A stretch of DNA of 22,225 nucleotides from a virus, in IMG/VR virus record IMGVR_UViG_3300001850_000461, positions 1 through 22,225 of that record. One strand, given 5' to 3'. The notes under the pieces are model-generated. The model worked only from the letters and a program-made list of their open reading frames with translations, did not search any database and was not told where the DNA came from. The translations under genes were made by a program, and so were the position numbers. Positions 4,758-21,201 of the stretch are shown here, in pieces; the first letter of the stretch is position 1; each line of letters opens with the position of its first letter.

Positions 4758-5534
4758 ATGGAAAAAGACAAACTAATCTGTGAACACATTTCAGTCTCAA
4801 GAAAACAAACTTGGGACTTGTGCCAACTTTCATACAAGTACCGCTACCATCTTAAACTTGTGTCCCAAGAACCTGTTCAGCCATATTTCGCTTATGGAAA
4901 ACTTGTCCATAAAATAGCAGAAATCTATGTGCAAGAACAAGGGCAAAAACCAATTGAAGAAATCACATCTCAATGCCTTAAAGGCGAAATAGTTGTAGAA
5001 GAAGGAAAACCTCCTATTGTTTTAGATGCGGAATACAAAAAGAAACTGCCAGAACATGTCAGAAACATTAAGAACATAAGCGACAAAATTGGATATGATG
5101 GCGAACTAGAATGGATGTTTAAATATGATATGCAACCACCAGATAATCACATGATAACTGGTGTTATAGACAGATTAATCATCCGTGGTGATAAGTATTT
5201 CATTCTTGATTACAAAACAACGAAAAAAGGAAAGTGGCGTAAAAACGCAAGCACAATATCAAAGGATTTGCAGCTAAGATGTTACGCAAGAGTTGTCAAC
5301 AAACATTTTGGTGCAAAGCCTGAAAACATAAAAGCTGCCCTTTTTTATTTAGATGGCGCAGACCTTGTGAGCACTAAATTCACAGAAGAAACGATTATGA
5401 GTGCAGAAGAAGAACTGCACAACACATTCAAACATATTACAGAAACTAGTCCAGACGATGCCTACAGCCGTGTAGGAGAACATTGTCGCAGGTGTGATTG
5501 GCGCAAGATTTGTCCTGCTCACAGAACAACTTAA
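4758..5534 (+). CDS. PD-(D/E)XK nuclease of the RecB/Cas4 type with Fe-S cluster cysteines
   Basis: The protein has 258 residues from ATG 4758; an in-frame upstream start near 4707 would run into the opposing primase. The order of motifs fits a RecB-family exonuclease domain. S-x-S-R-K-Q-x-x-x-x-C at residues 12-22 gives a first cysteine, C22. H51 is in YGKLVHKIAE, D138 in TGVIDRL, and D151-Y-K153 in FILDYKTTKKG. QLRCYA follows at 172-177, and C243, C246 and C252 lie in HCRRCDWRKICP. Four cysteines spaced as C...CxxCx5C normally hold a 4Fe-4S cluster in Cas4, AddB and related nucleases. It lies divergently next to the primase, so a role in replication or recombination of phage DNA is likely. 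No CRISPR genes are nearby. Confidence 0.87.
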   Translation: MEKDKLICEHISVSRKQTWDLCQLSYKYRYHLKLVSQEPVQPYFAYGKLVHKIAEIYVQEQGQKPIEEITSQCLKGEIVVEEGKPPIVLDAEYKKKLPEHVRNIKNISDKIGYDGELEWMFKYDMQPPDNHMITGVIDRLIIRGDKYFILDYKTTKKGKWRKNASTISKDLQLRCYARVVNKHFGAKPENIKAALFYLDGADLVSTKFTEETIMSAEEELHNTFKHITETSPDDAYSRVGEHCRRCDWRKICPAHRTT

Positions 5535-6427
5535 GGCAAAAGAATATATTCTGGTCTGAATTCTTCGTTCTTACCGCTATGATCTTTTATCTTGATCTGT
5601 TTGGCGTTTCCGACTACATCTTTCTGCTCAAGCAAAAACTCATATCCTTTTTGCTTTGACCAGAACTTATGAATGACTGACAATGGTGTAAAATAGCCTT
5701 TTCCAGTACCATCACGATATTGTGTGCCCCAACAAGTTCCAATATAATATCCATCGTCATTCATGAGACCTCCACCACTTCTACCCGGTCTTGGTGAGTT
5801 TTTAGTTGTTACGAGATCATCGCCTTCTATGCCGATCATTTCGATATCATAATGAGCCACTTCAGTTCCAGCATCGCATCCAACTGAGTGAGCGTGTTGT
5901 CCTGCCACATATTTGTATTCTTTTGGCCCAAGAGGAAAAACATTCGGTTCCCAATCAGGAGTGAATGTTATAAGAGCAGTATCCTGACCATCGACATAAC
6001 TATAAAAAATTACATTTGAATCATATGATCTTGGTGTGTCTAACTTATTGTCATTGTGATACCATATTATTACCTTACACTTCATGTTCTTCTTCTTGCC
6101 TTCTTCAACGCTCATAATCCCTTGAGACCATAAGTGACCGCAAGTGGCAACATACGCTAAATTTTTCTTCTTATCGTAATGGACAATTGTTCCAGAACCA
6201 GATGCTCCAGAAACTGCTATTTTTACTGATGGTGCAAGATATTTTCTAAATTCAGGTCCACGCCTTGGAATTGGAGCAGGATTCTCATTTCCAAATTTAT
6301 CACGCTCCAAAATTGGCATGTTATCGAACGAATCGATATCATAAAATTTTGGGGTGTCCTGATATGAAACACTTGGATTTGTTGTTAAAATAAAGGATAA
6401 TAATGTGAAAAAGAATCTTTTAATCAT
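5531..6427 (-). CDS. Secreted trypsin-like serine protease
   Basis: The protein has 298 residues. ATG at 6427 has GGAG five bases upstream. Residues 1-22 are a Sec-type signal peptide (MIKRFFFTLLSFILTTN then Ser-Val-Ser-Tyr). The chymotrypsin-fold triad is visible: H98 in VATCGHLW, D149 in DGQDTALITF and S217 in RPGRSGGGLMN, which is the G-x-S-G-G signature. The enzyme should act outside the cytoplasm on proteins; specificity is unknown. The C-terminus ends FRPEYILLP, and the EYIL-x-P part recurs in the cysteine peptidase at 18472. The gene is monocistronic and divergent from 6479, sharing a short spacer with a TATATA motif. Its stop shares the TTAA with that of the plus gene ending at 5534. 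Confidence 0.88.
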   Translation of the reverse strand: MIKRFFFTLLSFILTTNPSVSYQDTPKFYDIDSFDNMPILERDKFGNENPAPIPRRGPEFRKYLAPSVKIAVSGASGSGTIVHYDKKKNLAYVATCGHLWSQGIMSVEEGKKKNMKCKVIIWYHNDNKLDTPRSYDSNVIFYSYVDGQDTALITFTPDWEPNVFPLGPKEYKYVAGQHAHSVGCDAGTEVAHYDIEMIGIEGDDLVTTKNSPRPGRSGGGLMNDDGYYIGTCWGTQYRDGTGKGYFTPLSVIHKFWSKQKGYEFLLEQKDVVGNAKQIKIKDHSGKNEEFRPEYILLP

Positions 6428-6452
6428 TGCTACTCCAGTAATAAGAGTCTAA

Positions 6453-6462
6453 AATATATAGA
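6453..6462. promoter_or_regulatory. AATATATAGA: near-copy of the peptidase-associated 10-mer
   Basis: This lies in the 51-base spacer between the divergent genes at 6427 (serine protease) and 6479. Read toward the protease it is TCTATATATT, 9 of 10 matching the exact motif found at 11129, 15856, 18442 and 20103. It sits 25 bases from the protease ATG and 16 from the other. Confidence 0.45.
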
Positions 6463-6478
6463 GACAAGAGAGGTAAAC

Positions 6479-6928
6479 ATGGCCACCCTAACAATTTCTC
6501 ATTATTTATATTTGAAAGAAGAAGAAAGGTACGCACTTAATGATGGGAAAGACATTGAAACTGTTGGGGTTTGTATTCCAGTATGGTTTCTAAAAGGAAA
6601 CACATCAGAGCCAGCACAAGAATATTTTTGCAAATATATACTTAAAAATCCAAGAACAGGCGCAAATGTTAAACAGTCAGAAGAAGGATTTGAAGTTTAC
6701 TTTCCTAGCATCATTTCAAGCGAAGAGGAATCAGTAAATCAACAAACAAAAAGAATCATGCAAAAGAAAATAGGAACAACTGAATGTTTGCTTGAACCGC
6801 AAGATGGGGGTTTTGGGAATTGTGAATTTCGTATACTTCAAAAATTACAGCTAAAAGATAGCTTGCACCATCTCGTTCATTTTTTTGAAATTAAACCAAT
6901 TGAAATGCTAATCGACACAATAAGTTAA
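6479..6928 (+). CDS. Hypothetical protein
   Basis: The protein has 149 residues. The ATG at 6479 follows GAGAGGTAAAC. It starts MATLTISHYLYLKEEERYAL and looks like a soluble alpha/beta protein with mixed charge. There is no signal peptide, membrane segment or recognisable catalytic motif. I do not recognise the family. It is divergent from the serine protease and converges on the terL operon, with its TAA sharing the TTAA at 6925-6928 with the opposing stop. A single-gene transcript seems likely. Confidence 0.8.
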   Translation: MATLTISHYLYLKEEERYALNDGKDIETVGVCIPVWFLKGNTSEPAQEYFCKYILKNPRTGANVKQSEEGFEVYFPSIISSEEESVNQQTKRIMQKKIGTTECLLEPQDGGFGNCEFRILQKLQLKDSLHHLVHFFEIKPIEMLIDTIS

Positions 6929-7434
6929 GGACAATCGTGCAACTGAAGGGACATAGTCAAATTGAGTGTGTCTCCGCTTGCAAGAGTAACTGCATTGCTT
7001 AGTGGCGCAGATGAAATAAGAACACCTGTATTATCTGCTGAATTCACCATGAAAAGACTTTTTACTGGTCCAAATCCTGCTCCTGTAGCAGAAAAAATCA
7101 AGGTTGGACTTGCTGCTCTGTAAATGCCACTTACAGATGAAATCGTAAACCCATTTGTTGAGTTTACTGCTTGTCTAAGGTAACCACCAGAAGATGGTTC
7201 ATTTGTCAAAGATGAAATTGTATCATTAATGTTTATTGTTGTTCTATCATCAAGTCCAAAGTAATAATTTGCTGGCAACAATGAACCATCATTAGCAAAA
7301 CAAAGATTGAGGAGAAACAACTCGCCAAGTTGATGAAGGGTGTTATAAATGTTTTCTTCTTGGTAAATTACTTTTCCATTTCTCACATGAGACAATGAAT
7401 TGATTTTCAAAATACCACGCCAGTCATTTTTCAT
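6925..7434 (-). CDS. Probable virion structural protein
   Basis: The protein has 169 residues. Its ATG overlaps the stop of the upstream 2H phosphoesterase gene (ATGA at 7434-7431), making it the last cistron of the terL operon. It is rich in Ser, Thr, Asn, Gly and Leu with few charges in the second half. Phrases such as YYFGLDDRTT, EPSSGGYLRQAV, SPTLIFSATGAGFGPVKSLF and LASGDTLNLTMSLQL resemble beta-rich phage tail or baseplate decoration proteins that I recall from tailed-phage genomes. No catalytic residues are visible. Assignment as structural rests on composition, remembered similarity and its place in the packaging operon. Confidence 0.75.
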   Translation of the reverse strand: MKNDWRGILKINSLSHVRNGKVIYQEENIYNTLHQLGELFLLNLCFANDGSLLPANYYFGLDDRTTININDTISSLTNEPSSGGYLRQAVNSTNGFTISSVSGIYRAASPTLIFSATGAGFGPVKSLFMVNSADNTGVLISSAPLSNAVTLASGDTLNLTMSLQLHDCP

Positions 7435-7943
7435 AATTTTTTCCCTAATCTAAAAATCATCTTAGTATCAGGCCCAGAATAAATTAATTCATCAACATCG
7501 AAACTCTTGTCGCAAAAGTATCTATTGCCTAAAAAACTTTCTCCAAAACCTTTTTTCAAATAACACAAAGTCACATGAGGAACATATTCTGCATAAAATT
7601 TGTTATATTGTATATAATTTGATAAATTTTTGTTTATATTGCATATTTCTTGATTGATGATTGGAATATAAAGAACATCGAATTTACTGTTAGTTAAAAA
7701 TAATTTGAGTTGTCCAAGATAGCAAGTAAAAGGACTTTCCTCTTCTATTGTTTTTTGAATGTTTTTTGTATTCTTGTCAGAAATATCACTTAAAAGAGTG
7801 ACATGAACATCATGCACAATACCATAATATGGCTCTTCTTCATAAAGATAAGAATTATCTATATTGTCGTAGCACCACGATATTATTTCATCGGCAAGAG
7901 AATCTTTAATTTCTGCCAAAATGTACGATTTATCCAAATACAT
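7431..7943 (-). CDS. 2H phosphoesterase (LigT/2'-5' RNA ligase-like)
   Basis: The protein has 170 residues from ATG 7943, where GAAGAG stands about seven bases upstream; alternative starts at 7961 (ATG) and 7976 (TTG) would extend it. Two H-x-T motifs define the 2H fold: H47-V-T49 in HDVHVTLLSD and H123-V-T125 in VPHVTLCYLKKG, 76 residues apart. Members cleave or form 2',3'- or 2',5'-phosphodiesters. Phage members include tRNA-type ligase-like enzymes and Acb1 (T4 57B), which destroys cyclic nucleotide signals of CBASS immunity. Which substrate applies cannot be read from sequence. It overlaps the upstream coiled-coil gene by 14 bases and the downstream structural gene by 4. Confidence 0.82.
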   Translation of the reverse strand: MYLDKSYILAEIKDSLADEIISWCYDNIDNSYLYEEEPYYGIVHDVHVTLLSDISDKNTKNIQKTIEEESPFTCYLGQLKLFLTNSKFDVLYIPIINQEICNINKNLSNYIQYNKFYAEYVPHVTLCYLKKGFGESFLGNRYFCDKSFDVDELIYSGPDTKMIFRLGKKL

Positions 7944-8262
7944 TCTGCATCTCTTCGTCATTAGTTGGAGCGTCAATAATCTTTTCAGAATTTCTTTTTG
8001 AAACTAGTTGTTCTAGCTTATTTTTTTCCAGATTGATTTCTCTTTCTATGGCGACAAGGTTATTCACATTTGATTTTTTGGCCTGAACTGATTTTCTTTT
8101 CTGATAGTTATCTTCTCTTATCTGCCTCTTTTTTTCCACTTCTTCAATAGCTTCCATAGCTTTTACAATTAGAACTTTCACTTCCTGCAATGAGAAATCA
8201 TCAGGCGCATTTATAAGTGCCTGACGCAAATAATTTTTTGTCGCATTAGTGTTGTTTTTCAT
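7930..8262 (-). CDS. Small coiled-coil protein of the terL operon
   Basis: The protein has 110 residues. ATG at 8262 has GGAG within the last codons of the preceding gene, whose stop is one base away. The sequence is helical and highly charged. NYLRQALINAPDDFSLQEVKV is followed by KAMEAIEEVEKKRQIREDN and a Lys/Glu heptad-like stretch (LVAIEREINLEKNKLEQLVS). It ends in an acidic tail. This size and character, next to the terminase large subunit, would suit a small terminase partner or head-assembly helper, but no small-terminase motif is recognised. Function unknown. Confidence 0.8.
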   Translation of the reverse strand: MKNNTNATKNYLRQALINAPDDFSLQEVKVLIVKAMEAIEEVEKKRQIREDNYQKRKSVQAKKSNVNNLVAIEREINLEKNKLEQLVSKRNSEKIIDAPTNDEEMQNVFG

Positions 8263-8263
8263 G

Positions 8264-9226
8264 TTATTTCTCCAGAAGCTTTATCCAAATGATATCGACA
8301 TCATCAAGAAGTTGATATTCTATGAAATCACCTTCATTTAAAACTTTAGTTAATTTGTCTTGCCTTAAACGAACCTTCCAAATATCTTCTGATTCTGAAA
8401 TCGGCATATTCCTAAGCAAAGTGTTTTTTGGCAAAGTTGTTTTAATTCCAAGCGAAATGTCTCTTTTCTTTTTCTCAAACAAGTTTCTCTCTTCTTGTGG
8501 CTTATTCATGTACAATGTAATTATTTTTTTAATTTTTGGGCTTTCTTTAATTCTTTGTAGCAAACTGTCAATCTGAGACCTCATAGAAGAAGGCATTTCA
8601 CTAAAAACTATATTTTCAACTAAAAAACCACGATCAGTTTTCTTGAAATCAAAAACGACATGATAGTTCTCGCCAATAGTTACTGTTGCCTCTTCAGATG
8701 CACGATTTTCTTTATAAACTGCTGTAAAATTAATCGGATGATGATCCCATTCAATTTTTTCAATTTCTCTTTCTACATTAAAAACCATTTCCCTCATCAC
8801 ATCTAAAGTTTTAGAACACAAACCTTCAACAATATCATCAATGTCTTTCGGATCAAGTTTTTTTCTAATCATGTTGGATTGATATGTGTACACAACAGAT
8901 TCTATCAATGGAATAACACTATCGTCTTTTGAATTAAGATATAACCATCTTTCAAGATTTTCTACTTGATTTGAAATTTTTGTTATATTTGAATTTTCTA
9001 AACATATCATAAAAGATTCAACATATGGATAATTAACTTTTTCTAATTTTGATTTGATGTTTGTAACATCAATAAAATTTTTGACACATGGATTATTGTC
9101 AGAATTTTTTAACACTAAGCCAGAAATGTTAGTTGTTAATTGTTCTTTGTAATCATCAATTGAAATCGCAATTTTAGATTGCGAGTTTGCTTTCTTTTCA
9201 CAATATTCTTTGTATCTTGTAAACAT
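8264..9226 (-). CDS. Hypothetical protein directly downstream of terL
   Basis: The protein has 320 residues. Its ATG at 9226 is two bases after the terL stop, so it is co-transcribed and probably coupled. It starts MFTRYKEYCEKKANSQ and is Lys/Ile/Asn-rich. There is a helical middle (residues about 60-170) and a strand-rich part with YHVVFDFKKTDRGFLVENIVF. It ends with DFIEYQLLDDVDIIWIKLLEK-type hydrophobic strands. There is no signal peptide and no motif I can name. Position suggests a packaging or head-completion role, which is inference only. Confidence 0.82.
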   Translation of the reverse strand: MFTRYKEYCEKKANSQSKIAISIDDYKEQLTTNISGLVLKNSDNNPCVKNFIDVTNIKSKLEKVNYPYVESFMICLENSNITKISNQVENLERWLYLNSKDDSVIPLIESVVYTYQSNMIRKKLDPKDIDDIVEGLCSKTLDVMREMVFNVEREIEKIEWDHHPINFTAVYKENRASEEATVTIGENYHVVFDFKKTDRGFLVENIVFSEMPSSMRSQIDSLLQRIKESPKIKKIITLYMNKPQEERNLFEKKKRDISLGIKTTLPKNTLLRNMPISESEDIWKVRLRQDKLTKVLNEGDFIEYQLLDDVDIIWIKLLEK

Positions 9227-9228
9227 AA

Positions 9229-11085
9229 TTAAAATCCAAACTCTCTAAGCAGTCTATCGTATTTTCTTTCTGGAATATATGTGTAACCACCTTGATAATT
9301 ATCTGACTCTGGTGCAAGTAAATCCATTTCATCATCAGACAATAAATCTTCGGGGCTACCTTCAAGAAGCTGCTTCTTGATGTCTTCGTAAACTGCATTT
9401 TTGACAATTTGTACTGATTCTTTTGGTCTTTCTGCTCCCATAGGCAAATCACGAAGAAGAGTATCACGAACATATAGTGCAATACACATGGACATTATTG
9501 CATCGTCATGTTTACCCTTCTGTGCCTGAGCTTTTCTAGTCACTTTATTGTATTCAAAAGTTTGAAGTTCACAAACAAACCTCATACTGTTGATTCTTAC
9601 AGTTTGATTCGTGAGCCTATTCTGCAAAGCCTCAAGATAAAGAGGCCTATTTGTTTGGCTCATCTTAATTCCCGGTTTGGCATTAGCAGTTTTCGTGTTT
9701 TCATAATACAGGTTGTCATAAAACAAAGTGTGTTGCAATGCACTTAAAACAGCGCCTCCCGGTCCCATGTTTTCGACAACCACAAGGGAATTATTGTAAA
9801 ATGTGGCAACTTCATTAATTACTTGGGCAAACTCATGAGGAATTATCAGGTTTGAATAAAACTCTACTACTTGCTCAAGTGTAGCAGTATCAATAATGTG
9901 GAAAACACTACTGTCATTGTTTTCGCCCTGACCTTCAGCGCAGTCAGCAGCTAAGATATATTCGTGCCCTTCAACAGGCTCTTTCCAAATCCACATGGCA
10001 CCTTTGTTTTGATCATTTTCAAGTTGTGCTATTCTGCCAGCTTGATTTGCCCATTTGGGAAACAACTTGCGACTTGGAAAATTACTTCTAGTTTGTTCTG
10101 TTAAACTAGTGATAATCTTTGCGCTAAAATATGTTTCGCCAGAGCCCTGAAATTCACGCAAAACTTCTTGTCTGAAGCCTTTTTCGCCTAACTGAGCCTT
10201 CTGTTCCGCAACCCAATTTTCGTCATTGTAATCAGGGTGTTCCCAATAATCCAAATCAATAACATGAAACTTGTTTAATCCATCTTTTGCTTCTTGATAT
10301 GTTTGCTCATACCAGTTTCCCAATCCATTTACAGTTGAGATCAATGTGCATGAACCACCTGTTGAAAGGATAGGCCACATAGCTTTCCAATGTTTTTCCA
10401 TATCATCGATGAACGCACATTCGTCTACGATTAGGAATGTTACTGACTTACCACGGGCTGCTTCTGGTGAATAAAATTTTAATGCTGATCCTGTATCTGT
10501 AAATTGTTTTAAGTGGTCATTCCACTTTCCATCTTTTTTAGGTTTTAGCCATTCTGGTAAATTTTCACACGCACGATCAGCCATCATGCCAATATCAGTT
10601 GCTTCTCGGTCTGTTTTTGAAATAAGCATGATTTGCTGGTCAAGCTGAAACATACAGCGCCACAAACCCCATAACAAAGTTACAGTAGTCAAACCACCCT
10701 GACGAAACTTTGAAATAATGTTGAATCTGTGATTTTCATAATCATTTATCGTTTTTCTTTGGTATTTAAATAAAACGAATGGAATAAGACCACGCATGGG
10801 GTGAAGAATTTTTACATATTTGTGGCAAAAATATGCAAAACTGTTTGAGCATTTGATTATTTCTTTTTTACGCCTGTTAGTGTCGTAATTTTCAACACTC
10901 TCTAATGGCTCATCTGGATCAATCTGCAATTCATATTTATCGAAACTGTAATATTTTGGATCATATTGAAGTCTATTACTATCCGTGTCGATGTTGCCAC
11001 CAGACAGATAATAATCCGACAAGGTTTTGAATTTACCTCTCCAGACAGATTCTTTTACGCTTTTGAAGTAAACGCTTTCTTCCAT
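9229..11085 (-). CDS. terL: Terminase large subunit (gp17-like packaging ATPase/nuclease)
   Basis: The protein has 618 residues, the usual size for T4-type TerL. It drives DNA into the prohead and cuts the concatemer. The ATPase domain has an atypical Walker A, KFRQGGLTT (126-134), with Leu where T4 gp17 has Lys. Walker B is TFLIVDEC with D221-E222, and the coupling motif is STVNG near 250-254. The RNase H-fold nuclease has D381 in LAADCAEGQG, E438 in VVVENMGPGG and D528 in KHDDAIMS. The gene opens a minus operon of five tightly joined cistrons (11085 down to 6925). The ribosome site is weak (TTGGAATAAA). It is intact and free of inteins, unlike the portal gene. Confidence 0.96.
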   Translation of the reverse strand: MEESVYFKSVKESVWRGKFKTLSDYYLSGGNIDTDSNRLQYDPKYYSFDKYELQIDPDEPLESVENYDTNRRKKEIIKCSNSFAYFCHKYVKILHPMRGLIPFVLFKYQRKTINDYENHRFNIISKFRQGGLTTVTLLWGLWRCMFQLDQQIMLISKTDREATDIGMMADRACENLPEWLKPKKDGKWNDHLKQFTDTGSALKFYSPEAARGKSVTFLIVDECAFIDDMEKHWKAMWPILSTGGSCTLISTVNGLGNWYEQTYQEAKDGLNKFHVIDLDYWEHPDYNDENWVAEQKAQLGEKGFRQEVLREFQGSGETYFSAKIITSLTEQTRSNFPSRKLFPKWANQAGRIAQLENDQNKGAMWIWKEPVEGHEYILAADCAEGQGENNDSSVFHIIDTATLEQVVEFYSNLIIPHEFAQVINEVATFYNNSLVVVENMGPGGAVLSALQHTLFYDNLYYENTKTANAKPGIKMSQTNRPLYLEALQNRLTNQTVRINSMRFVCELQTFEYNKVTRKAQAQKGKHDDAIMSMCIALYVRDTLLRDLPMGAERPKESVQIVKNAVYEDIKKQLLEGSPEDLLSDDEMDLLAPESDNYQGGYTYIPERKYDRLLREFGF

Positions 11086-11128
11086 TTTATTCCAAAATTT
11101 ACTTTTTAACAGACAAAACTAAGATAAT

Positions 11129-11138
11129 AATATATAGT
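11129..11138. promoter_or_regulatory. AATATATAGT motif between terL and the M28 peptidase gene
   Basis: This lies in the 81-base divergent spacer, 28 bases from the ATG at 11167 and 43 from the terL ATG at 11085. It is an exact copy of the 10-mer at 20103 and the reverse complement of ACTATATATT at 15856 and 18442. A promoter -10 or late-promoter element is likely; direction is ambiguous because the core is palindromic. Confidence 0.55.
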
Positions 11139-11166
11139 TTCATCACAAGACAAAACAAAGGTCGCC

Positions 11167-12300
11167 ATGAAAAAGTTGCATATATTAGCCCTTACCTTGG
11201 GATTGATGATACTTGTTCTTCTTTTTAGCAAAGAAAAAAAATTTGAATTACAACACCCAGCTAGTCCATTTGAAGAAAAAATAGAGAAAAAACCAGAAAT
11301 AAAAGTAGAACCACCAAAATTAACAGTTATTGATGCTTTAGGCAAAATTGATAGAATAGACCTAAAAGCAAATCTTGAGTATCTGGCCTCAAACCAACTT
11401 GAAGGCAGAATGTCTGGTAAAAAAGGCAACAAGATTGCTGCTGAATACATCAAGAAAAAGTTTGAAGATTTTGGATTACCAACTGAATTTGACAAATTTA
11501 ACATTAAAAGAGTCAATCCCGGCCCTAAAAATGAAATAGGTGATGACTTCACAAACAACATCTATTCTTGGATTGAAGGGAATGATCCAATTCTAAAAGA
11601 TGAAGTTGTAGTCATTGGCGCTCATATGGACCACATTGGATATGGGCCAACTTATAGCCGTACTGGTGGAGGTAGAATCCATAATGGCGCAGATGACAAT
11701 GCAAGTGGAACAGTTGCGCTTTTAGAAATAGCAGAAGCATTTTCAGTTATGAAAGGCCAGAATAAAAGAACAGTTGTTTTCATTGCATTTTCAGCAGAAG
11801 AAATGGGATTAAAAGGAAGTTTGCATTATGTGAACAATCCCAAATTCCCCAAGGGAAATCCTGACATAAAAAAGCATATTTTCATGTTAAACATGGACAT
11901 GGTTGGGCATCTTGGCACAAGTAAAACAGTTGCATTTGATGATGGAACAAGTTCTCCAGATATTGGGTTCATAATCAAGCAACTTGGAGGAAAATATTCT
12001 TTTGCAAAAAATATAACATTGCGTGGATCAGGTGGAAGTGATCATGCGCCCTTCTATAATAAGAAAGTACCCGTGGCTTTCCTGCACACAGGACTTCATG
12101 AGTATTATCACACACCCAAAGATACTTCTGACAGAATCAACTACGATGGTCTAGAAAAAGTTTCTAAATACGGTTTTGAGTTGGCATGGACCGTATGTAA
12201 CGCAGTAGAAAGAGTAGAATTTGATTATGGCTCATTTAAAGAACTAGACCTGAATCACGATCACGGTCAAAAAGATATGCCATTAGAGGAAAACCCATGA
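11167..12300 (+). CDS. M28-family zinc aminopeptidase, membrane-anchored or secreted
   Basis: The protein has 377 residues. ATG at 11167 follows AAAGGTCGCC. Residues 5-20 are a hydrophobic signal or anchor, followed by a Lys/Glu/Pro linker (residues 36-51). The peptidase domain has all five M28 metal positions: H153 in GAHMDHIG, the bridging Asp at 176/177 in NGADDNASG, E211-E212 in FSAEEMGL, D244 in LNMDMVG, and H315 in EYYHTPKDT. It should remove N-terminal residues from peptides with a dinuclear zinc centre, in the periplasm or outside the cell. A ferritin-like gene overlaps its stop (ATGA). The same anchor-plus-linker design recurs in the M14 gene at 20143. Confidence 0.92.
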   Translation: MKKLHILALTLGLMILVLLFSKEKKFELQHPASPFEEKIEKKPEIKVEPPKLTVIDALGKIDRIDLKANLEYLASNQLEGRMSGKKGNKIAAEYIKKKFEDFGLPTEFDKFNIKRVNPGPKNEIGDDFTNNIYSWIEGNDPILKDEVVVIGAHMDHIGYGPTYSRTGGGRIHNGADDNASGTVALLEIAEAFSVMKGQNKRTVVFIAFSAEEMGLKGSLHYVNNPKFPKGNPDIKKHIFMLNMDMVGHLGTSKTVAFDDGTSSPDIGFIIKQLGGKYSFAKNITLRGSGGSDHAPFYNKKVPVAFLHTGLHEYYHTPKDTSDRINYDGLEKVSKYGFELAWTVCNAVERVEFDYGSFKELDLNHDHGQKDMPLEENP

Positions 12301-12725
12301 CTAAACAAGAAATGATTGATTTGCTGAATGAAGACCTAAAAAATGAATGGATGCATTTAAGATTTTACCTTTATCACGCAAGTCAAGTAGTTGGCTTACA
12401 TTGCTCAGAATATAAGGAACTACTATTGGCACACGCAGCAAGCGAAATGAAGCATGTTACTGAATTTTCTGATATGATTATTGGATTAGGTGGATCACCA
12501 ACAGAAGAATCAAATAGTTTTACAAAACATACTAATCCCAAAGAAATCATGACTTATGCTTTGGAAATTGAATCAAAAGTCGTTGAAAATTACACCGAAC
12601 GCATTAAACAAGCAGAAGAATTAGGTGGAGTTGACGGTCAATGGCTTGAAATTTTCCTAGAAAAGCAAGTAGAACATAGTCGTGAAGATGCAGATCATTT
12701 CAAACAAATACTTCGTGGCATTTGA
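12297..12725 (+). CDS. Ferritin-like diiron protein (bacterioferritin/Dps type)
   Basis: The protein has 142 residues. The ATG at 12297 overlaps the M28 stop (ATGA), so translation is coupled. It is a predicted four-helix bundle: NEDLKNEWMHLRFYLYHAS, HAASEMKHVTEFSDMIIGLGG, YALEIESKVVENYTERI and LEKQVEHSREDADHF. E17, E50 and H53 match the first glutamate and the E-x-x-H pair of the ferroxidase centre. Candidate later ligands are E92 and E126, but they cannot be aligned exactly by eye. Such proteins oxidise and store iron or protect DNA. The length is slightly below bacterioferritin (about 155). In a phage it could bind iron released in the host or serve the oxygenase at 2653, both inference. 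Confidence 0.85.
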   Translation: MTKQEMIDLLNEDLKNEWMHLRFYLYHASQVVGLHCSEYKELLLAHAASEMKHVTEFSDMIIGLGGSPTEESNSFTKHTNPKEIMTYALEIESKVVENYTERIKQAEELGGVDGQWLEIFLEKQVEHSREDADHFKQILRGI

Positions 12726-12774
12726 CTTTTTTTTCATTAAACATACAATTTAGTGAAACCAAGAGGAATTACCA

Positions 12775-14330: not shown

Positions 14331-14338
14331 AAAACCTC

Positions 14339-14893: not shown

Positions 14894-14924
14894 AATTGCC
14901 CCTTTTTTAGAGAGTTTCCACTAG

Positions 14925-14932
14925 TATTTATC
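14925..14932 (-). promoter_or_regulatory. T4-late-like GATAAATA box
   Basis: Read on the minus strand this is GATAAATACTA, 7 of 8 to the T4 late consensus TATAAATA. It sits 31 bases from the ATG at 14893, in the 48-base gap after the gene ending at 14942. Confidence 0.45.
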
Positions 14933-14941
14933 CTTCTGCAA

Positions 14942-15301
14942 TCAATTTTTGCGACGAACTTTTATCTCAGAAATGATTACTTTTTGTTTATAAAACAAAA
15001 TTTCAGCTTGCTTTTCAGCTTTAACGCAAGCGTCTTCATATGTTTCTGCCTGCATATCTTTTAAATTCTTGTATTCAATCCCTAAACCACGATTAAAACG
15101 AACAATTGCAGTCCAATCAGACATCCTTGGCTGTTTTAATGTTTTAATTGCAAATTCAATTGCATCCTCGTACTTACTAAATTCAGTTTCATCTAAATGA
15201 AAGTCACTCTCTTGTACTGCTTGTTTTTTCAAAATAAATTTTCCATTACTGGGAAAAATCATGAATCCGCTCATCATTATATTTCGTAATTCTTCACTCA
15301 T
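14942..15301 (-). CDS. Hypothetical protein
   Basis: The protein has 119 residues from ATG 15301 (MSEELRNIMMSGF), which is served by GAGGTG four bases upstream; an in-frame ATG at 15313 gives four more residues. The sequence looks alpha/beta: MIFPSNGKFILKKQAVQE, YEDAIEFAIKTLKQPRMSDW, TAIVRFNRGLGIEYKN, and a Lys-rich C-terminus KVIISEIKVRRKN. No motif is recognised. It follows the gene at 15317 closely and probably shares its transcript. Confidence 0.8.
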   Translation of the reverse strand: MSEELRNIMMSGFMIFPSNGKFILKKQAVQESDFHLDETEFSKYEDAIEFAIKTLKQPRMSDWTAIVRFNRGLGIEYKNLKDMQAETYEDACVKAEKQAEILFYKQKVIISEIKVRRKN

Positions 15302-15316
15302 ATAACACCTCATCCA

Positions 15317-15838
15317 TTAAGTTAAGCCCCATTTTGTTCGGAATTCATCTAGCAATTCTTGCCTTTTCTTGTTCGCAGCTTCAATTAGTTTCTTTCTTTC
15401 TTTGGGTTTTTGTATTTTCTCCAATTTCTTGGCATCTTCATATATTCTTTCCAATTCATTTTCCCAATTTTCATGTGGCACATATGCCTCAAGCTCTCCA
15501 CCAACTTCTTTATAAACTTTGTAACCTTGATATTCTACTGTTATTTCACGATGGTGGAAATAAACATAAATTGACAAATTAACGCCACGACTCAGACCAT
15601 CAAAATGAACTCCAATTTCATAACTTTGATCGTCTTCTTCAATAGTTGGCATCGAATCTTCTTCTTCAATCGCAAAAGGATCATCCAGAAATGTCTGCTC
15701 AAAAGAACGACTTCCCTGATGAATTATAGGATTGCCCAATTTTTTAGCAATTAAAGAGAATTTACCCTCCATTCCCATATAGCCCTTACGCATGGCTTCT
15801 ATGGTTCTTGCCTCACGGATCATCTGCTCACGATTCAT
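15317..15838 (-). CDS. Hypothetical protein, first cistron of a minus operon
   Basis: The protein has 173 residues. ATG at 15838 has AGAGGGTCTAAAC upstream. The N-terminal part is charged (MNREQMIREARTIEAMRKGY). An acidic segment follows near residues 52-72 (DDPFAIEEEDSMPTIEEDD), then a strand-rich domain (GVNLSIYVYFHHREITVEYQ, YKVYKEVGGELEAYV). A basic helical tail contains Lys-rich heptads. No catalytic motif is visible and I do not recognise the family. It is divergent from the metallopeptidase gene at 15897, sharing the spacer with the ACTATATATT motif. Confidence 0.8.
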   Translation of the reverse strand: MNREQMIREARTIEAMRKGYMGMEGKFSLIAKKLGNPIIHQGSRSFEQTFLDDPFAIEEEDSMPTIEEDDQSYEIGVHFDGLSRGVNLSIYVYFHHREITVEYQGYKVYKEVGGELEAYVPHENWENELERIYEDAKKLEKIQKPKERKKLIEAANKKRQELLDEFRTKWGLT

Positions 15839-15855
15839 GTTTAGACCCTCTGACC

Positions 15856-15865
15856 ACTATATATT
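15856..15865. promoter_or_regulatory. ACTATATATT motif upstream of the HExxH metallopeptidase
   Basis: This is an exact copy of the motif at 18442 (both in the wider context CCACTATATATT) and the reverse complement of those at 11129 and 20103. It lies in a divergent spacer, 31 bases from the ATG at 15897 and 17 from that at 15838. Confidence 0.55.
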
Positions 15866-15896
15866 AATGTCGCAACCAACTAACTAGGAGGATTAA

Positions 15897-17612
15897 ATGC
15901 TCAATGGAATTATGAATTGGTTTAGACGAAACATACCTTTTGTTTTTCCACATGATGAACAGATTGTTGAAAAACAAGGATTACCAGCAGCTAAATCCAA
16001 CCTAAATAAAACATATCTTGTAGATGCCACTATGCCAACTTTTGTTGTTGAAGCACCAATTCCAACAACAACAGCACTCCCAATGACAGCAACAGGCGAA
16101 ATGGGAGGCGGATACGCATTAGGATCAAGTCAACAACAAGCAGCAGGACTAAAACAAATTGTAAATGCTGCACTTCTTTACATGTCTGGAAAAACACCCA
16201 AAAAAATTACTAAATGGGCAGCAACAAGTAATTTACTTCTCCAAGCTAGAGCAGGCCGTGATATCAATGCCTATTATGACAGAACAGGCTTAAAATTCTT
16301 TTACTTTCCTGATGGATATCGCAAAAAAACTGTTTACGCCTGTGATTCAAGAGTTGTTGTATCACATGAATTTGGACACGCATTCCTTGATATTCTCAGA
16401 CCAGACCTGTGGAATGTTATGTCCGATGAATGTTGGGCGTATCATGAAGCTTTCGCAGACATTATTGCACTTTTAAATAACTTGCAATATGAATCAATCA
16501 TAGACGCCGCAATAAAAGAAACTTCTGACTTAAACAAATCCAACATATTGACCAGATTTGCTGTTGATATGGGTATTGGACTTTATAACTTAACAGGTGG
16601 AAAAGACGGAGAATTAAGCAATTGCCTTCGTGATTTAACCATAAGATTTGACTATGCGAATCCATCATCTTTACCAAAAGATGGCAGAGATGATCAACTT
16701 ATCAATGAATCTCACAGCTTTAGCCGTGTTTTTTCAGGAATGTTTTATAACATCCTTATTCAAGTTGCCAACTATTACATCACAAATGAAAAACTAGCCC
16801 CAAAAGCAGCATTGATTAAGTCAAGAGATACAATGGCAAGCTATATAATCAATGCATCTATGACTGCTCCTGTAAACCCAAGATTCTACAAAGCAGTATG
16901 TCAGGAAATGCTCACATTTGACAAAAAGAATGGTGGTAAATTCCAAACACTCCTTTTCAATACTTTCGTTTCATGGAAAATTCTTGATCCAGCAATCAAA
17001 ATACTAAGCAATATCACATATGCTGATGTCATCAAAAATGTTAAATCTGAATTTGATTATGAGGATCATGGAACCATTAAAGTTCTTCGTTTAGGATCAA
17101 AGAAAACGATTAAACTTTCAGATTCACACGGCGTTCTTGCCATGAGTTACAATCCACTTATGGAAGCAGAAATAGAAGTTGCATACCAATCTGCTTATTA
17201 TTTTGATGAAAACCTAATTCTTCAAGATGTCAATGAGACTTCTGATACTGAAATCATTGAATCAGCCATGAACTGTATCAATCTCATTCAAGCTAAAAAT
17301 CTACTGGGGAATACAGACCGCTCACAATTTGAATTAGTTGAAGGAAAACTTCTTCGTACTAAAATCGCAGCTTGCGGATGCAATAAACCAAATTATTGCA
17401 TCCCCGGCTCACCTGAATATCAAAAGCCGTGGAAGCCAAAAAATAATGCAGGATGCGTTAAATGTCGCAACAAAAATTGCGAACCAAGACCATGCAACTG
17501 CGAAACTCCAACACCACCAACTCCACCAAAATTAGGCTGCTACACAGCAGTTAAATCTTGCAATTACTCTGCAATTACAGTTGGAAGCAGAATATCAAGG
17601 AAGGTCTGTTAA
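15897..17612 (+). CDS. HExxH gluzincin metallopeptidase (M4-like) with Cys-rich tail
   Basis: The protein has 571 residues. ATG at 15897 follows a perfect AGGAGG with spacing five. The zinc motif is H157-E-F-G-H161 in VVVSHEFGHAFLD. The third ligand is E184 in YHEAFADIIALL, as in thermolysin-type (M4) and M36 peptidases. H273 in NESHSFSRVFSGMFYN may be the M4 transition-state histidine. The central ~200 residues look helical. The last ~80 residues contain 11 cysteines with a Pro-rich linker (CETPTPPTPPKLGCY), a disulfide- or metal-rich tail. No clear signal peptide is seen, unlike the other four peptidases, so export may need lysis or the protein may be in the virion. Its end overlaps the opposing lipoprotein gene by 18 bases. 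Confidence 0.85.
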   Translation: MLNGIMNWFRRNIPFVFPHDEQIVEKQGLPAAKSNLNKTYLVDATMPTFVVEAPIPTTTALPMTATGEMGGGYALGSSQQQAAGLKQIVNAALLYMSGKTPKKITKWAATSNLLLQARAGRDINAYYDRTGLKFFYFPDGYRKKTVYACDSRVVVSHEFGHAFLDILRPDLWNVMSDECWAYHEAFADIIALLNNLQYESIIDAAIKETSDLNKSNILTRFAVDMGIGLYNLTGGKDGELSNCLRDLTIRFDYANPSSLPKDGRDDQLINESHSFSRVFSGMFYNILIQVANYYITNEKLAPKAALIKSRDTMASYIINASMTAPVNPRFYKAVCQEMLTFDKKNGGKFQTLLFNTFVSWKILDPAIKILSNITYADVIKNVKSEFDYEDHGTIKVLRLGSKKTIKLSDSHGVLAMSYNPLMEAEIEVAYQSAYYFDENLILQDVNETSDTEIIESAMNCINLIQAKNLLGNTDRSQFELVEGKLLRTKIAACGCNKPNYCIPGSPEYQKPWKPKNNAGCVKCRNKNCEPRPCNCETPTPPTPPKLGCYTAVKSCNYSAITVGSRISRKVC

Positions 17613-18026
17613 TTTAACAGGCAATTTAACTGGTTTGCCTTTATCATCAAAATAAATTGTGTTGGTATTCGCATCAATATGACTGTAGATTAGCTCTGCA
17701 TAAGGCTTATCTCCCATCAAATTGATGCGAATACTAACCTCTGTTATCTTTGGCCTTACAGTTCTGATCCTAATTTTAAATTTGTCCTTGTCACCAGAAA
17801 CTAAATAAAACCCATCTTTTGTCTCTTCATCATTTATAATCTTGTGCCCCAAATCATCCAAAGCATGTTTTGTAGCACGATAAATTATTTTTGATTCATC
17901 ATTATAATATTTTTTTGCCTCACCTTGCTTCCACATTATAACACCAGTCACTATTGGACTTACTACAAATGGCGCAACTGTGCAACCAAAAATAAAAAAA
18001 CATAAAAATAATACTATTTTTTTCAC
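17595..18026 (-). CDS. Lipoprotein, DUF3568-like
   Basis: The protein has 143 residues. The GTG start at 18026 is supported by a perfect AGGAGG five bases upstream. Residues 1-15 are a lipoprotein signal (MKKIVLFLCFFIFGC) with lipid attachment expected at C15. The mature part begins with a hydrophobic Ala/Val/Gly stretch. It continues with YRATKHALDDLGHKIIND and a strand-rich segment (FKIRIRTVRPKITEVSIRIN, LMGDKPYAELIYSHI). This order resembles DUF3568 envelope lipoproteins of Gram-negative bacteria, from memory. A phage-borne lipoprotein often alters the host surface, for instance blocking superinfection. That role is inference here. Confidence 0.85.
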   Translation of the reverse strand: MKKIVLFLCFFIFGCTVAPFVVSPIVTGVIMWKQGEAKKYYNDESKIIYRATKHALDDLGHKIINDEETKDGFYLVSGDKDKFKIRIRTVRPKITEVSIRINLMGDKPYAELIYSHIDANTNTIYFDDKGKPVKLPVKLTDLP

Positions 18027-18079
18027 TCTTGCCTCCTATGATAGTTATTGACTGGCATTGCATTTAAAGGAGATTAGCC

Positions 18080-18376
18080 ATGATAGAATATTTGGACGAA
18101 ATCTTTGCAAATCTTTATTCAAACGACATCTTTGTAGGAAAAAATTACGACGATGATGAAGACGATGATGACGATGATGATATTTGGGGCGATGACGAAG
18201 ATGAAGATGAGGATGAAGACGAAGACGAAGATGACGATTGGGAAGAAGATGAATGGGACGATGATGAAGATGATGAGTCATGGGACGATGACGATGATGA
18301 TGACGATGATGACGATTGGGAAGAAGACGAATGGGATGATGATGAAGAAGACGAAGACGAAGAAGATAACTACTAA
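18080..18376 (+). CDS. Hyperacidic Asp/Glu-Trp low-complexity protein
   Basis: The protein has 98 residues. ATG at 18080 follows AAAGGAGATTAGCC, a strong site. A normal N-terminus (MIEYLDEIFANLYSNDIFVG) precedes about 75 residues that are nearly all Asp and Glu, broken by single Trp residues. The block DDDWEEDEWDDDE occurs twice. The net charge is extreme and the protein is presumably unfolded. It could bind calcium or other cations, act as a DNA mimic, or be a charge-balancing internal virion protein; none is shown. A perfect palindromic terminator follows. Codons alternate GAT/GAC and GAA/GAG, so the tract is not a simple single-codon expansion. Confidence 0.82.
   Translation: MIEYLDEIFANLYSNDIFVGKNYDDDEDDDDDDDIWGDDEDEDEDEDEDEDDDWEEDEWDDDEDDESWDDDDDDDDDDDWEEDEWDDDEEDEDEEDNY
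18148..18369 (+). repeat. GAY/GAR triplet low-complexity tract
   Basis: This tract is almost entirely GAT, GAC, GAA and GAG codons. Two longer near-identical blocks start at 18233 and 18311, 78 bases apart, each encoding the DDWEEDEWDDDE unit, which suggests internal duplication by slippage or recombination. Confidence 0.75.
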
Positions 18377-18398
18377 GTGAAAAAAATAAAAAAGCACA

Positions 18399-18434
18399 AA
18401 AATGAGCCTAGGAATTCCTAGGCTCATTTTATTT
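18399..18434. terminator. Perfect 32-base palindrome, bidirectional terminator
   Basis: AAAATGAGCCTAGG and its exact complement flank a 4-base AATT centre (18399-18430), giving a 14-bp stem. TTTTATTTT follows on the plus strand, and T-rich sequence also follows when read in reverse. It separates the acidic protein gene from the cysteine peptidase gene. Confidence 0.88.
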
Positions 18435-18441
18435 TATAACC

Positions 18442-18451
18442 ACTATATATT
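18442..18451 (+). promoter_or_regulatory. ACTATATATT motif upstream of the cysteine peptidase
   Basis: This is an exact motif copy placed between the palindromic terminator and the ATG at 18472 (20 bases). Because the flanking genes are both plus-strand, this copy can only serve the peptidase, which fixes the functional direction. Confidence 0.6.
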
Positions 18452-18471
18452 TTCATACTAAAAGAGGTTTT

Positions 18472-19200
18472 ATGGCAAGACTTTTATTCATTTTCCTATT
18501 TTTTGCCATTAATTTACAGGCATTTTCACAACCATTTCCAGATAGAACATTCCCAGAAAGACCAAGCATAAAACAATTCCCCAGCGTTTATCTGGCTGTT
18601 GATACAAACCCAATAGTTGCCTATGACGGCGCTATTGATGAAGACCTCTCAGACCTTATGGTCCCAATTCCCATGAGAGATCGTGTTTTCAACAGAACAG
18701 GAATTCAATGCGTTTGGGCATCAACAGAAGCCCTTGGAAGATATGCAGAAGAACCAAAACTTATCAATCTTACAGATGACCCAGAATGCAAAAGCTATGC
18801 TGGCCCAGCCAGCTATTCTCGCAAAATGAAAGAAAGAGCCGTAAAATACAGAATGACATATGACACCAATGACAGAAGCCTCATCATTAAATCAGTAGTT
18901 CAAGAAAGAAGAGGCTGTATGTTTTGCGTTCCCGGCCACGCCATGGTACTTGTACACTATGATGAAAAAAAAGGCATTGTTAAGTATTTCAACAATTCTG
19001 ACAGATCACTAGCAATCAGAACTTGGACTATGGCCGAATTCAATAAAAGATTTGAAGGTTGGGTTGCTGCAATTTACGCAGACCATGACATCATATCACA
19101 AAAATATGCACCCAAAATTGAACCTTTGCCAATCATCGACAGAAATGGACAACAAGGAATTTACGACAAAGAATACATCCTTCAGCCAGCAAAAAATTAA
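18472..19200 (+). CDS. Secreted papain-like (C-H-N) cysteine peptidase
   Basis: The protein has 242 residues. ATG at 18472 follows AAAAGAGGTTTT. Residues 1-19 form a signal peptide (MARLLFIFLFFAINLQAFS). A Pro-rich region then leads to GIQCVWASTEALGRY with probable nucleophile C80. H156 sits in VPGHAMVLVHYD and N174/N175 in KYFNNSDRS, the Cys-His-Asn order and spacing of papain-fold enzymes (C1, C39 and relatives). Extra cysteines C106, C149 and C152 may form disulfides. The end KEYILQPAKN shares EYIL-x-P with the serine protease at 5531. The enzyme should act outside the cytoplasm. It has its own terminator-flanked promoter region. Confidence 0.82.
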   Translation: MARLLFIFLFFAINLQAFSQPFPDRTFPERPSIKQFPSVYLAVDTNPIVAYDGAIDEDLSDLMVPIPMRDRVFNRTGIQCVWASTEALGRYAEEPKLINLTDDPECKSYAGPASYSRKMKERAVKYRMTYDTNDRSLIIKSVVQERRGCMFCVPGHAMVLVHYDEKKGIVKYFNNSDRSLAIRTWTMAEFNKRFEGWVAAIYADHDIISQKYAPKIEPLPIIDRNGQQGIYDKEYILQPAKN

Positions 19201-19874
19201 TCTAATTTTGAAGTTTTTTGCATAAGAGTCATACCATTTCGCATCACTTTATCAGAATGAAAATGCATAACGCTGAATTCACCATATTCATCCATGAACC
19301 AATTTACAGTTTTTTGCTCTGATTTGATAACTGCAACTTTTCCAGACTTGCGTATGTTATCACCCAACTTTTCATTCTTTTTTCTATATGATTCAGGCGA
19401 TTTTTCAAAACCCTCTTTTGTGTAATAACCAGTATCGTGAATTATAACTATGCCATTTTTAGATAATAAAGGAATAACTTTTTGCAAACACTTCTTATTT
19501 AATTCAAAAATATGCGAACAATCCAAAAAAAACAAATCTATAAACCTTCCTTGTATCATCTCTGAATTGAAATTAACACAATCATCTTTTATAAAAAAAC
19601 AATTTTTTAGATTTTTACAAAGTTTGCTGGCACTATCTACACAAAATTGCTCTTTGTCTAAACCAAAATAAAAACAATCTTCATCTTTTGCTAAACAAAA
19701 ATTATATGCAGACAAACCTGTTTGTAATCCAAATTCAACTATAGTAGAAGGACGAATTACTCTCACCATACCAAATAAAAAAACCGCCTCATCTCTTTGT
19801 ATAGGCCCGTGTTTATAACTTTCAAACAAATCCAAATGATTTTTTTCTAAACCCAACTGAGGATGAAAAATCAT
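19197..19874 (-). CDS. SAM-dependent methyltransferase, class I (TylF/CmcI-like)
   Basis: The protein has 225 residues. ATG at 19874 overlaps the TAA of the upstream small gene (TAATG), so the two are coupled. The Rossmann motifs are IVEFGLQTGLSAYNF (motif I), an acidic YFGLDKEQFC second strand, FIDLFFLDCSHIFELNKK (motif with D-x-S-H), and VIPLLSKNGIVIIHDTGYY. The D-x-S-H and closing IHDT are typical of Methyltransf_24-type O-methyltransferases acting on sugars or small molecules. The substrate is unknown. With the nearby sulfotransferase-like gene it may modify a surface glycan, which is inference. Its stop shares a TTAA with that of the cysteine peptidase. Confidence 0.85.
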   Translation of the reverse strand: MIFHPQLGLEKNHLDLFESYKHGPIQRDEAVFLFGMVRVIRPSTIVEFGLQTGLSAYNFCLAKDEDCFYFGLDKEQFCVDSASKLCKNLKNCFFIKDDCVNFNSEMIQGRFIDLFFLDCSHIFELNKKCLQKVIPLLSKNGIVIIHDTGYYTKEGFEKSPESYRKKNEKLGDNIRKSGKVAVIKSEQKTVNWFMDEYGEFSVMHFHSDKVMRNGMTLMQKTSKLD

Positions 19875-20098
19875 TATTTTTTCTTATCCTTGCAATTGCA
19901 ACCTTTTTTCATCATCTTCGCTTTTCTCATCTTGTCCAAAATTGTTGGTGGCTTTTCATCAGAAATATATGTGTTCATGGCAGTTGTCGGTACACTTGCC
20001 CCAAATCCATCAGGCCCCGGAGTCGCAAATGATGGCGCTCCTGTCATTCCTCCGTAATTTTCAGCTTTCTGAAGCCAGCTAGAAAAAGATTGCATCAT
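19874..20098 (-). CDS. Small protein with Cys/Lys-rich tail
   Basis: The protein has 74 residues from ATG 20098 (or 73 from the adjacent ATG 20095). No clear ribosome site precedes it, and the AATATATAGT motif lies only five bases away, so the transcript may be nearly leaderless. It begins MMQSFSSWLQKAENYGG, passes through a Gly/Pro/Ser/Thr-rich middle, and ends MMKKGCNCKDKKK. The final CNC with flanking lysines could bind metal or nucleic acid. Short proteins beginning with an M-x-x-F-x-x-W-L helix occur in T4-like phages near head genes, but I recognise no family. It is coupled to the methyltransferase. Confidence 0.7.
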   Translation of the reverse strand: MMQSFSSWLQKAENYGGMTGAPSFATPGPDGFGASVPTTAMNTYISDEKPPTILDKMRKAKMMKKGCNCKDKKK

Positions 20099-20102
20099 AT
20101 AC

Positions 20103-20112
20103 AATATATAGT
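20103..20112. promoter_or_regulatory. AATATATAGT motif upstream of the M14 peptidase
   Basis: This is an exact motif copy, 30 bases from the ATG at 20143 and in the same orientation and near-same distance as the copy upstream of the M28 gene. It also abuts the start of the divergent small gene at 20098. Confidence 0.55.
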
Positions 20113-20142
20113 TTGCAAGGGTTTTTTATGACAAGGAGTGTT

Positions 20143-21201
20143 ATGAAAAATAAAATGATGAAATTAGGCTTAATTTTAATCCTATCAGCATTAAGCGTAA
20201 TTACATATAACAAAAAAATATCATCAAAAACTCAACCAGAAAATCAAATTGTTCTAAAAAAACCAGAACAAAAAATAAATTTAGAAGAACCAAAAACCTA
20301 TCAGATTACAACCAAAATACCAGAACATCTCAGCTATCCACAAACAGTTGAACAACTACAAAACTGGAAAAAAGAAGCCCCTGATCTAGTAGAAACAGGC
20401 ACATACGGCAAAAGCAAAAAAGGCACAGACCTCTATTTCATAAGAATAAATAAAAAAGATAACAAAAATAAACCAGTTGTTCTCTACACATCCTGCATTC
20501 ACGGCAATGAGCCTCTCGCAGCAGGAATTACTATGGCCTATATCGGCACACTCCTTGACCAATACAACAAAAACAAAGAACTTACTGAAATAGTCAATAC
20601 AAGAGACTTATATTTTGTTCCAGTAGTCTCTCCAGATAGCTATCCAAATACAAGATATGTTGATGGAGTTGATCCCAATCGTGACTTCTCAAGCCCTAAA
20701 TTTCCAAATCACGAAAGCAGCCCAAGCGTAACTGCACTTATTGACCTCTACTGGAAATTAAGACCATCAGCAGTTATTTCAGGACACACCTTCGGAAGAC
20801 TTATGCTCACTCCATACGGAGATAACTATAACAAAACCCCTCACGAAAATGATTATACCAGAATCGTTGGCAAAATGGCTGAAATGTGCGGATACAAAAA
20901 AATGCCATGCGCCGAACTCTACAGCAGACCTATATCAGGAACAGAAGTTGATTGGTTCTACAGAAATGGATCAATGGCTGTTGTTATTGAATTTGGAACA
21001 CATCAAAACAAACCCACATTTTCCGAAATATACAAGGAATTCAAAACAACAAAAGACGCAATCACACTTTTTATCAAAGAAGCACCACTTGTCCCAATTA
21101 CTGTGGCCGACGAAGAGATTGATTTTTCAAAAAATACAGGTATCGCTCGTAGCTATCGGAAATCTGCGAACGGACAGTTGGTCCCAGCAAGTCAGTATTG
21201 A
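20143..21201 (+). CDS. M14-family zinc carboxypeptidase, membrane-anchored or secreted
   Basis: The protein has 352 residues from ATG 20143, which has AAGGAG four bases upstream; ATG 20128 with its own AAGGG is an alternative adding five residues. A hydrophobic signal/anchor spans residues 7-22, then a Lys/Glu/Pro linker to about residue 55. The zinc site has H120 and E123 in SCIHGNEPLAAG and H215 in VISGHTFG. The substrate Arg is R180 in DGVDPNRDF. The catalytic glutamate is E283 in VVIEFGTHQ. It removes C-terminal residues or cuts gamma-D-Glu bonds in peptidoglycan stems, as M14 members do both. The C-terminal 104 bases overlap the opposing sulfotransferase-like gene. Confidence 0.92.
   Translation: MKNKMMKLGLILILSALSVITYNKKISSKTQPENQIVLKKPEQKINLEEPKTYQITTKIPEHLSYPQTVEQLQNWKKEAPDLVETGTYGKSKKGTDLYFIRINKKDNKNKPVVLYTSCIHGNEPLAAGITMAYIGTLLDQYNKNKELTEIVNTRDLYFVPVVSPDSYPNTRYVDGVDPNRDFSSPKFPNHESSPSVTALIDLYWKLRPSAVISGHTFGRLMLTPYGDNYNKTPHENDYTRIVGKMAEMCGYKKMPCAELYSRPISGTEVDWFYRNGSMAVVIEFGTHQNKPTFSEIYKEFKTTKDAITLFIKEAPLVPITVADEEIDFSKNTGIARSYRKSANGQLVPASQY

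Follow-up and report, generated by a model that had tools for sequence, protein, structure and literature searches.

What does a phage gain from five peptidases of different catalytic type, gathered on one short piece of its genome? The question is raised by the IMG/VR virus record IMGVR_UViG_3300001850_000461, a linear fragment whose full length of 22,225 bases is referred to here as the window. The proteases of phages are usually counted as lysins or assigned to capsid maturation; the S77 prohead protease family has no match among the five, and none of them is a known peptidoglycan lysin domain. An earlier note on this DNA had read the five as a trypsin-like serine protease (TRYP), an M28 aminopeptidase, an M4-like gluzincin (GLUZ), a papain-like cysteine peptidase (PAP) and an M14 carboxypeptidase, and had treated them as one set. 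All five are confirmed here as genuine peptidases, namely S1, M28, a gluzincin of thermolysin/M36 fold, a cysteine peptidase of papain/C39 fold and M14. The set, however, divides into four and one: the gluzincin belongs to the core genes and in most homologues lacks a signal, whereas the other four constitute a clade-specific suite of exported type that has been gained or lost. The identities given for TRYP and PAP were right, but it had been overlooked that these two enzymes of unrelated fold share a C-terminal tail of about 21 residues. On balance, we lean towards an exported proteolysis module, peculiar to one clade of huge T4-type phages, that would act in the host envelope, with its endopeptidases docked by the common tag.

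A C-terminal tail common to unrelated peptidases

The tail of TRYP (IKIKDHSGKNEEFRPEYILLP; positions 5534..5596, minus strand) was delineated from tail alignments and a hidden Markov model (HMM), and that of PAP (LPIIDRNGQQGIYDKEYILQPAKN; 19126..19197, plus strand) from the same sources and a scan of viral contigs. Their consensus is IPIIDRNNPQGxYPxDYIPLP, located at the C-terminus or a few residues before it, behind a variable linker, and the sequence usable as a peptide is IPIIDRNNPQGKYPRDYIPLP. Among 10,394 open reading frames (ORFs), an HMM built solely from TRYP tails detects PAP and a third protein at about 1e-5 to 1e-8, the PAP of G001, a near relative of 532 kb, scoring more weakly at 0.007; the reverse search, from PAP tails to TRYP tails, also succeeds. 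In a search of the window together with ten contigs (2.7 Mb, 19,768 ORFs), the tail carriers belong to three families only, the next E-value being 0.036, and a tail-alignment scan of 2.9 million viral contigs yielded 26 confirmed loci, all of them TRYP, PAP or the third protein. The restriction to three families among so many ORFs rules out a genome-wide secretion signal. A search of reference phages with the tail gave no match, and the matches in plasmids were due to chance (TraG, E = 3).

The tail is conserved at the protein level. Between a divergent TRYP (L235) and members of the deep clade, the catalytic domain is 38-42% identical and the tail 86-90%. Where tail residues are identical, the codons differ in 62% of comparisons, among loci that range from 33 to 58% GC; since different codons specify the same residues, selection has acted on the peptide, and the tail is a conserved peptide. 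The same figures rule out a DNA-level signal such as a terminator or a 3' duplication.

The third carrier is a 304-residue anchored protein of the relative G005 (L182:6311-7225) with the motifs GHG and SCYAS of caspase/legumain type. A relative of it in G001 is 46% identical, its ORF extending about 22 residues beyond the tail, and GHG and SC[YH]A are conserved in the two sequences. Since searches of Pfam and of PDB sequences gave no match for the third carrier, its clan can only be inferred, and we regard it as a putative clan CD (caspase/legumain) peptidase.

In the AlphaFold model of PAP the tail is of low confidence, as would be expected of a flexible docking peptide. It is fairly probable that the tail binds one common partner. 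A more tentative proposal, for which we would not go as far as even chances, is that the tail constitutes a targeting or docking signal of a new kind, through which one envelope partner, of phage or host origin, might recognise exported proteases of unrelated fold and bring about a multi-protease envelope complex during infection. An anchored family with the conserved motif GSNxxxFWxWS[KR]R (L279:1668-2477 in the 459-kb relative G024; homologues in G001, G003, G005, G007 and G023, absent from W01 and G004) is a candidate for the tail partner or an envelope protein.

The nearest functional analogy is the encapsulin cargo peptide. A short conserved C-terminal peptide on enzymes of unrelated fold docks these to one shell protein (PMC10960027). 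The phage tail resembles such peptides in being short, C-terminal and common to unrelated folds. However, encapsulin cargoes are cytosolic and carry another motif, whereas signal peptides are predicted for the tail carriers, which have no known shell, so that the likeness is one of working and membership is not claimed. The C-terminal domains of type IX secretion are folded, comprise about 70-80 residues and are found on a variety of exported proteases, each with a Sec signal at its N-terminus. The phage enzymes are like these in combining a common C-terminal sequence with an N-terminus of predicted Sec type, but the phage tail has about 21 residues and is of low confidence in the PAP model.

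Fold and catalytic residues of the five peptidases

Catalytic residues, which the earlier note had judged to be kept, do not vary in any homologue that is aligned at the respective columns (9-39 per enzyme, counted column by column). TRYP (298 residues; 5531..6427, minus strand) is an S1 trypsin-like protease by its match to Pfam Trypsin_2 (8e-7, above the cut-off) and its triad of H98, D149 and S217, present in 35/35, 35/35 and 34/34 homologues, respectively. The M28 metallo-aminopeptidase (377 residues; 11167..12300, plus strand; Pfam M28, 4.6e-42) retains its metal ligands and catalytic-Glu motifs in 24/24, and the M14 zinc carboxypeptidase (plus strand; Pfam M14, 1.5e-29) retains its His (12/12), Glu (12/12), second His (11/11) and catalytic Glu (9/9), so that the residues that mark an M14 carboxypeptidase, namely the HxxE...H zinc ligands, the substrate Arg and the catalytic Glu, are invariant. 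The coordinates given earlier were right, the M14 frame of 20113..21201 opening with TTG upstream of the ATG at 20143 that had been taken as its start.

The remaining two enzymes were recognised from models folded from family alignments. For GLUZ (571 residues; 15897..17612, plus strand), Pfam matches are at chance level (M78, 0.14; M4, 0.26). Its AlphaFold model, with a predicted local distance difference test score (pLDDT) of 81.7, matches M36 best (Z 23.8, root-mean-square deviation 2.7 over 284 residues), followed by thermolysin at a Z of about 21, and the HExxH motif, the downstream Glu ligand and the catalytic His are invariant in 39/39 homologues, as in a gluzincin of M4/M36 fold. By sequence it is assigned to neither family proper, M4 having an E-value of 0.26 and M36 not being among the matches listed. 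While GLUZ shares the fold and the zinc and catalytic residues of thermolysin (M4) and fungalysin (M36) at an identity of about 11-15%, it differs from them in lacking a signal peptide, in being a phage core gene and in its Cys-rich C-terminus. For PAP (242 residues; 18472..19200, plus strand) the Pfam scan gave no useful match; the core of the model has a pLDDT above 90 and matches enzymes of papain/C39 fold with Z up to 14.5. Its Cys (20/20), His (19/19) and Asn (17/17) are invariant, which together with the fold places it in clan CA as a C39-like papain-like peptidase.

The ratio of non-synonymous to synonymous variation (pN/pS) between the window and one relative is 0.15-0.30 for the enzymes, which are therefore under purifying selection; that of the terminase is 0.07. 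The one cellular homologue of TRYP found lies on a single contig of a Neisseriaceae metagenome-assembled genome (MAG), itself kin of the phage locus in the window, and the scan made for PAP confirmed no cellular homologue. A first pattern scan of viral contigs for M14 came back empty, probably owing to poor patterns, and M14 was then recovered through synteny and full contigs.

Predicted export of four enzymes

A signal peptide or anchor had been claimed for four of the five, and this is supported by a hydropathy heuristic rather than by SignalP. A strongly hydrophobic N-terminus of export type is present in all 84 homologues considered (TRYP 34/34, PAP 16/16, M28 24/24, M14 10/10). Since such N-termini occur at a background rate of 19% in G001, their presence in all four families is unlikely to be due to chance. 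GLUZ homologues have one in just 7 of 39 cases, some of these owing to over-extended starts. Residues 1-21 of TRYP (6365..6427, minus strand) form a predicted Sec signal peptide, with a hydropathy of 2.26 over 11 residues and a cleavage-like SVS at 21, and so do residues 1-19 of PAP (18472..18528, plus strand; hydropathy 2.72, AFS at 19). No cleavage-like site is present in the M28 N-termini inspected, and a membrane anchor is predicted there, as it is at the N-terminus of M14; divergent members of the set carry a lipobox. In our estimate, TRYP, PAP, M28 and M14 are very probably exported and active.

Distribution among huge phages

The terminase large subunit (9229..11085, minus strand; PHROG terminase, 1.3e-43) served as the phylogenetic marker. 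It shares 51% identity with its counterpart in LR756511.1, a 595-kb uncultured phage, and as much as 93% with those of IMG/VR contigs. Given this kinship, and the T4-type morphogenesis families of G001 (gp25, gp15, baseplate and S77 prohead protease), the window is probably a piece of a huge T4-type phage with a genome of about 0.5 Mb.

Co-occurrence in related contigs had been set in advance as the test on which the earlier note would fall. All five peptidases are found in the same order in 10 other IMG/VR contigs, that is, in 9 of the 29 compared and in 3300016659_000131, which is cut short at one end; with the catalytic residues intact as well, the note survives its own test. Endo- and exopeptidase types are both present, as it had supposed, and are inherited together. 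Around the terminase and portal genes, between which it sits, GLUZ is present in 29/29 contigs, its presence having been one of the grounds on which most of them were selected, and it is also present in LR756511. A deep sister group has TRYP and M28 without the full set; a third group of contigs and LR756511 have none of the four exported-type enzymes. The gluzincin is thus a separate core gene, because it is present where the other four are missing.

In some relatives these genes are dispersed. In G024, TRYP (423 kb) and M28 (430 kb) form a pair within 423-431 kb, whereas M14 (377 kb) and PAP (162 kb) are found elsewhere, the distance between members of the four reaching 260 kb; G023 has PAP at 57 kb and TRYP at 106 kb. 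All four are missing from W01 (595 kb) and G004 (180 kb). A comparison of gene content between the large tail-positive G001 and G024 and the tail-negative W01 and G004, limited by contig completeness, gave 33 conserved proteins specific to the former pair, 7 of them exported-like and of at least 150 residues. Five of these seven are peptidases: TRYP, PAP, M28, M14 and an anchored HETxH protein. The sixth is an anchored family of no known kind and the seventh is weak.

The arsenal of five is real but is larger in the relatives, where it includes the HETxH and caspase/legumain-like proteins, S8, C39, further S1 and S77 enzymes. The HETxH protein (L280:3708-4697 in G024; G001:240353-241228) is zincin-like, has a downstream DEW.AY motif, falls outside Pfam families and is a probable further exported metallopeptidase. 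A second S1 protease of exported type in G001 (L154:2450-4934), which lacks the tail, adjoins a glutamate dehydrogenase gene, and the pair lies within about 2 kb in G003 and G008 too. G001 also encodes a subtilase (S8, 7.6e-48; L154:12314-13285) with no evident signal peptide and a C39 peptidase (9e-12; L153:12746-13429).

Possible functions of the exported peptidases

According to the mechanism that we propose, the infected cell would make TRYP and PAP, and in some relatives the caspase/legumain-like protein as well, and export them via Sec. The flexible tail would dock these proteases to a single partner, shared by all of them and located in the host envelope, and envelope or periplasmic proteins might be cut there by them, while the anchored M28 aminopeptidase and M14 carboxypeptidase, facing the same compartment, could shorten the resulting fragments at their two ends. 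As a core protein, the gluzincin stands apart and is probably associated with the virion or its morphogenesis. The phage would most likely benefit by remodelling or digesting proteins of the host envelope in the course of infection, and recovery of amino acids is possible. Several observations weigh against this proposal. In the clade to which the window belongs, drift has brought the tail to 33% identity with the divergent TRYP; the within-genome covariation of TRYP and PAP tails is marginal (p = 0.05-0.06); the caspase/legumain-like carrier was assigned from the motifs GHG and SC[YH]A alone; and PAP, M14 and M28 have each been lost in some relatives, so that the exported set is not an obligate unit.

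Any single physiological role is at best an unlikely choice. Exported proteases could serve lysis and egress: by breaking down an S-layer or an envelope rich in protein, they would take the place of endolysin and spanins or add to them, and the predicted signal peptides and anchors would suit that role. The search for an endolysin beyond the window, advised earlier, was carried out for four families and found no match to SLT, Phage_lysozyme, M15_3 or Amidase_2 in 24-25 records, including the 532- and 595-kb genomes, although many lysin families lie outside these four. However, both those lysins and the module are missing from W01, so that the absence of the four families does not track with it, and a host with a protein envelope is hypothetical; we consider this role rather unlikely. 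Slightly less probable still is nutrient recovery, the exported endo- and exopeptidases degrading protein to amino acids for the translation-rich programme of the phage. The joint presence of endopeptidases, an aminopeptidase and a carboxypeptidase speaks for it, as do the occurrence, in G001, G003 and G008, of a glutamate dehydrogenase next to a further S1 protease and the wealth of aminoacyl-tRNA synthetases in G001. On the other hand, no peptide transporter is seen among the families listed, such synthetases are common across huge phages generally, and the dehydrogenase occurs in only 3 of 25 records.

Anchored and docked proteases might also strip surface receptors or exclude later phages, and accessory, clade-specific genes of exported type, with a lipobox in divergent members, would be in keeping with this, but exopeptidases would be unnecessary; we deem it improbable. 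That the tail is no more than a duplicated 3' end hitch-hiking without function has in its favour the shortness of the sequences and the drift in some clades. It is made quite improbable by conservation at the protein level with different codons in loci of 33-58% GC, by retention in highly divergent TRYP and by occurrence on three families at different genome positions. Least probable of all is that the set processes head proteins in capsid or virion maturation. The genes flank terminase and portal, where the gluzincin is universal, and S77 prohead proteases of the phiKZ type are likewise encoded by phages near head genes, but those act inside the cell, where they mature the capsid. The separate S77 enzyme of G001 makes capsid maturation unlikely for the set, signal peptides or anchors are predicted on 4/5 of its members, and in G024 the head genes are distant from both PAP and M14. 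For the gluzincin alone, the virion-maturation reading may hold.

Among accessory peptidases of jumbo phages, Iyer et al. (PMC7824862) describe ClpP, SprT-like, ArdC-like and group-1 zincin enzymes of patchy distribution, with host or virion proteins as the proposed targets. The distribution is patchy here too, but signal peptides, M28 and caspases go unmentioned there. Jumbo-phage reviews cover prohead and patchy intracellular peptidases rather than an exported, tagged set, and a literature search limited to open-licence papers, and hence weak as evidence, found no description of one. If real, an exported suite drawn from several clans and bearing a common tag would indicate that infection by huge phages includes a stage, located in the host envelope, that has gone unrecognised. 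The tail suggests a means, so far undescribed, by which a phage could send several proteases to the same place and, if so, would be a short transferable address tag, which makes the question directly testable.

Other genes in the window and its relatives

The 5' part of a portal protein gene lies at 21777..22225 (plus strand; PHROG portal, 2.7e-4, and its translation) and appears to be interrupted by an intein, the translation reading ...DEACISGDTKIATPFGYITIKELTE.... Rfam and tRNA scans of the window gave no matches. At positions 1-393, cut by the contig end, is an actin-like volactin homologue (Pfam, 3.9e-26) that is conserved clade-wide. A volactin-like gene with an intein-like insert is found at L222:619-2757 (RXKI01000042.1), a relative of the window phage that was binned as a Neisseriaceae MAG, which is weak evidence on the host.

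A 2H phosphoesterase-like protein at 7431-7958 (2'-5' RNA ligase, 0.0044; weak Acb1, 0.073) is, judging from its sequence, a possible RNA end enzyme or counter to the cyclic-oligonucleotide-based anti-phage signalling system (anti-CBASS). Adjoining M28, at 12297-12725, is a ferritin-like protein (1.2e-16) found in nearly all relatives. Finally, an extremely acidic protein of Asp/Glu repeats at 18080-18376 adjoins the gluzincin, and a comparable acidic ORF lies beside the gluzincin of G023 (L232:10977-11324).

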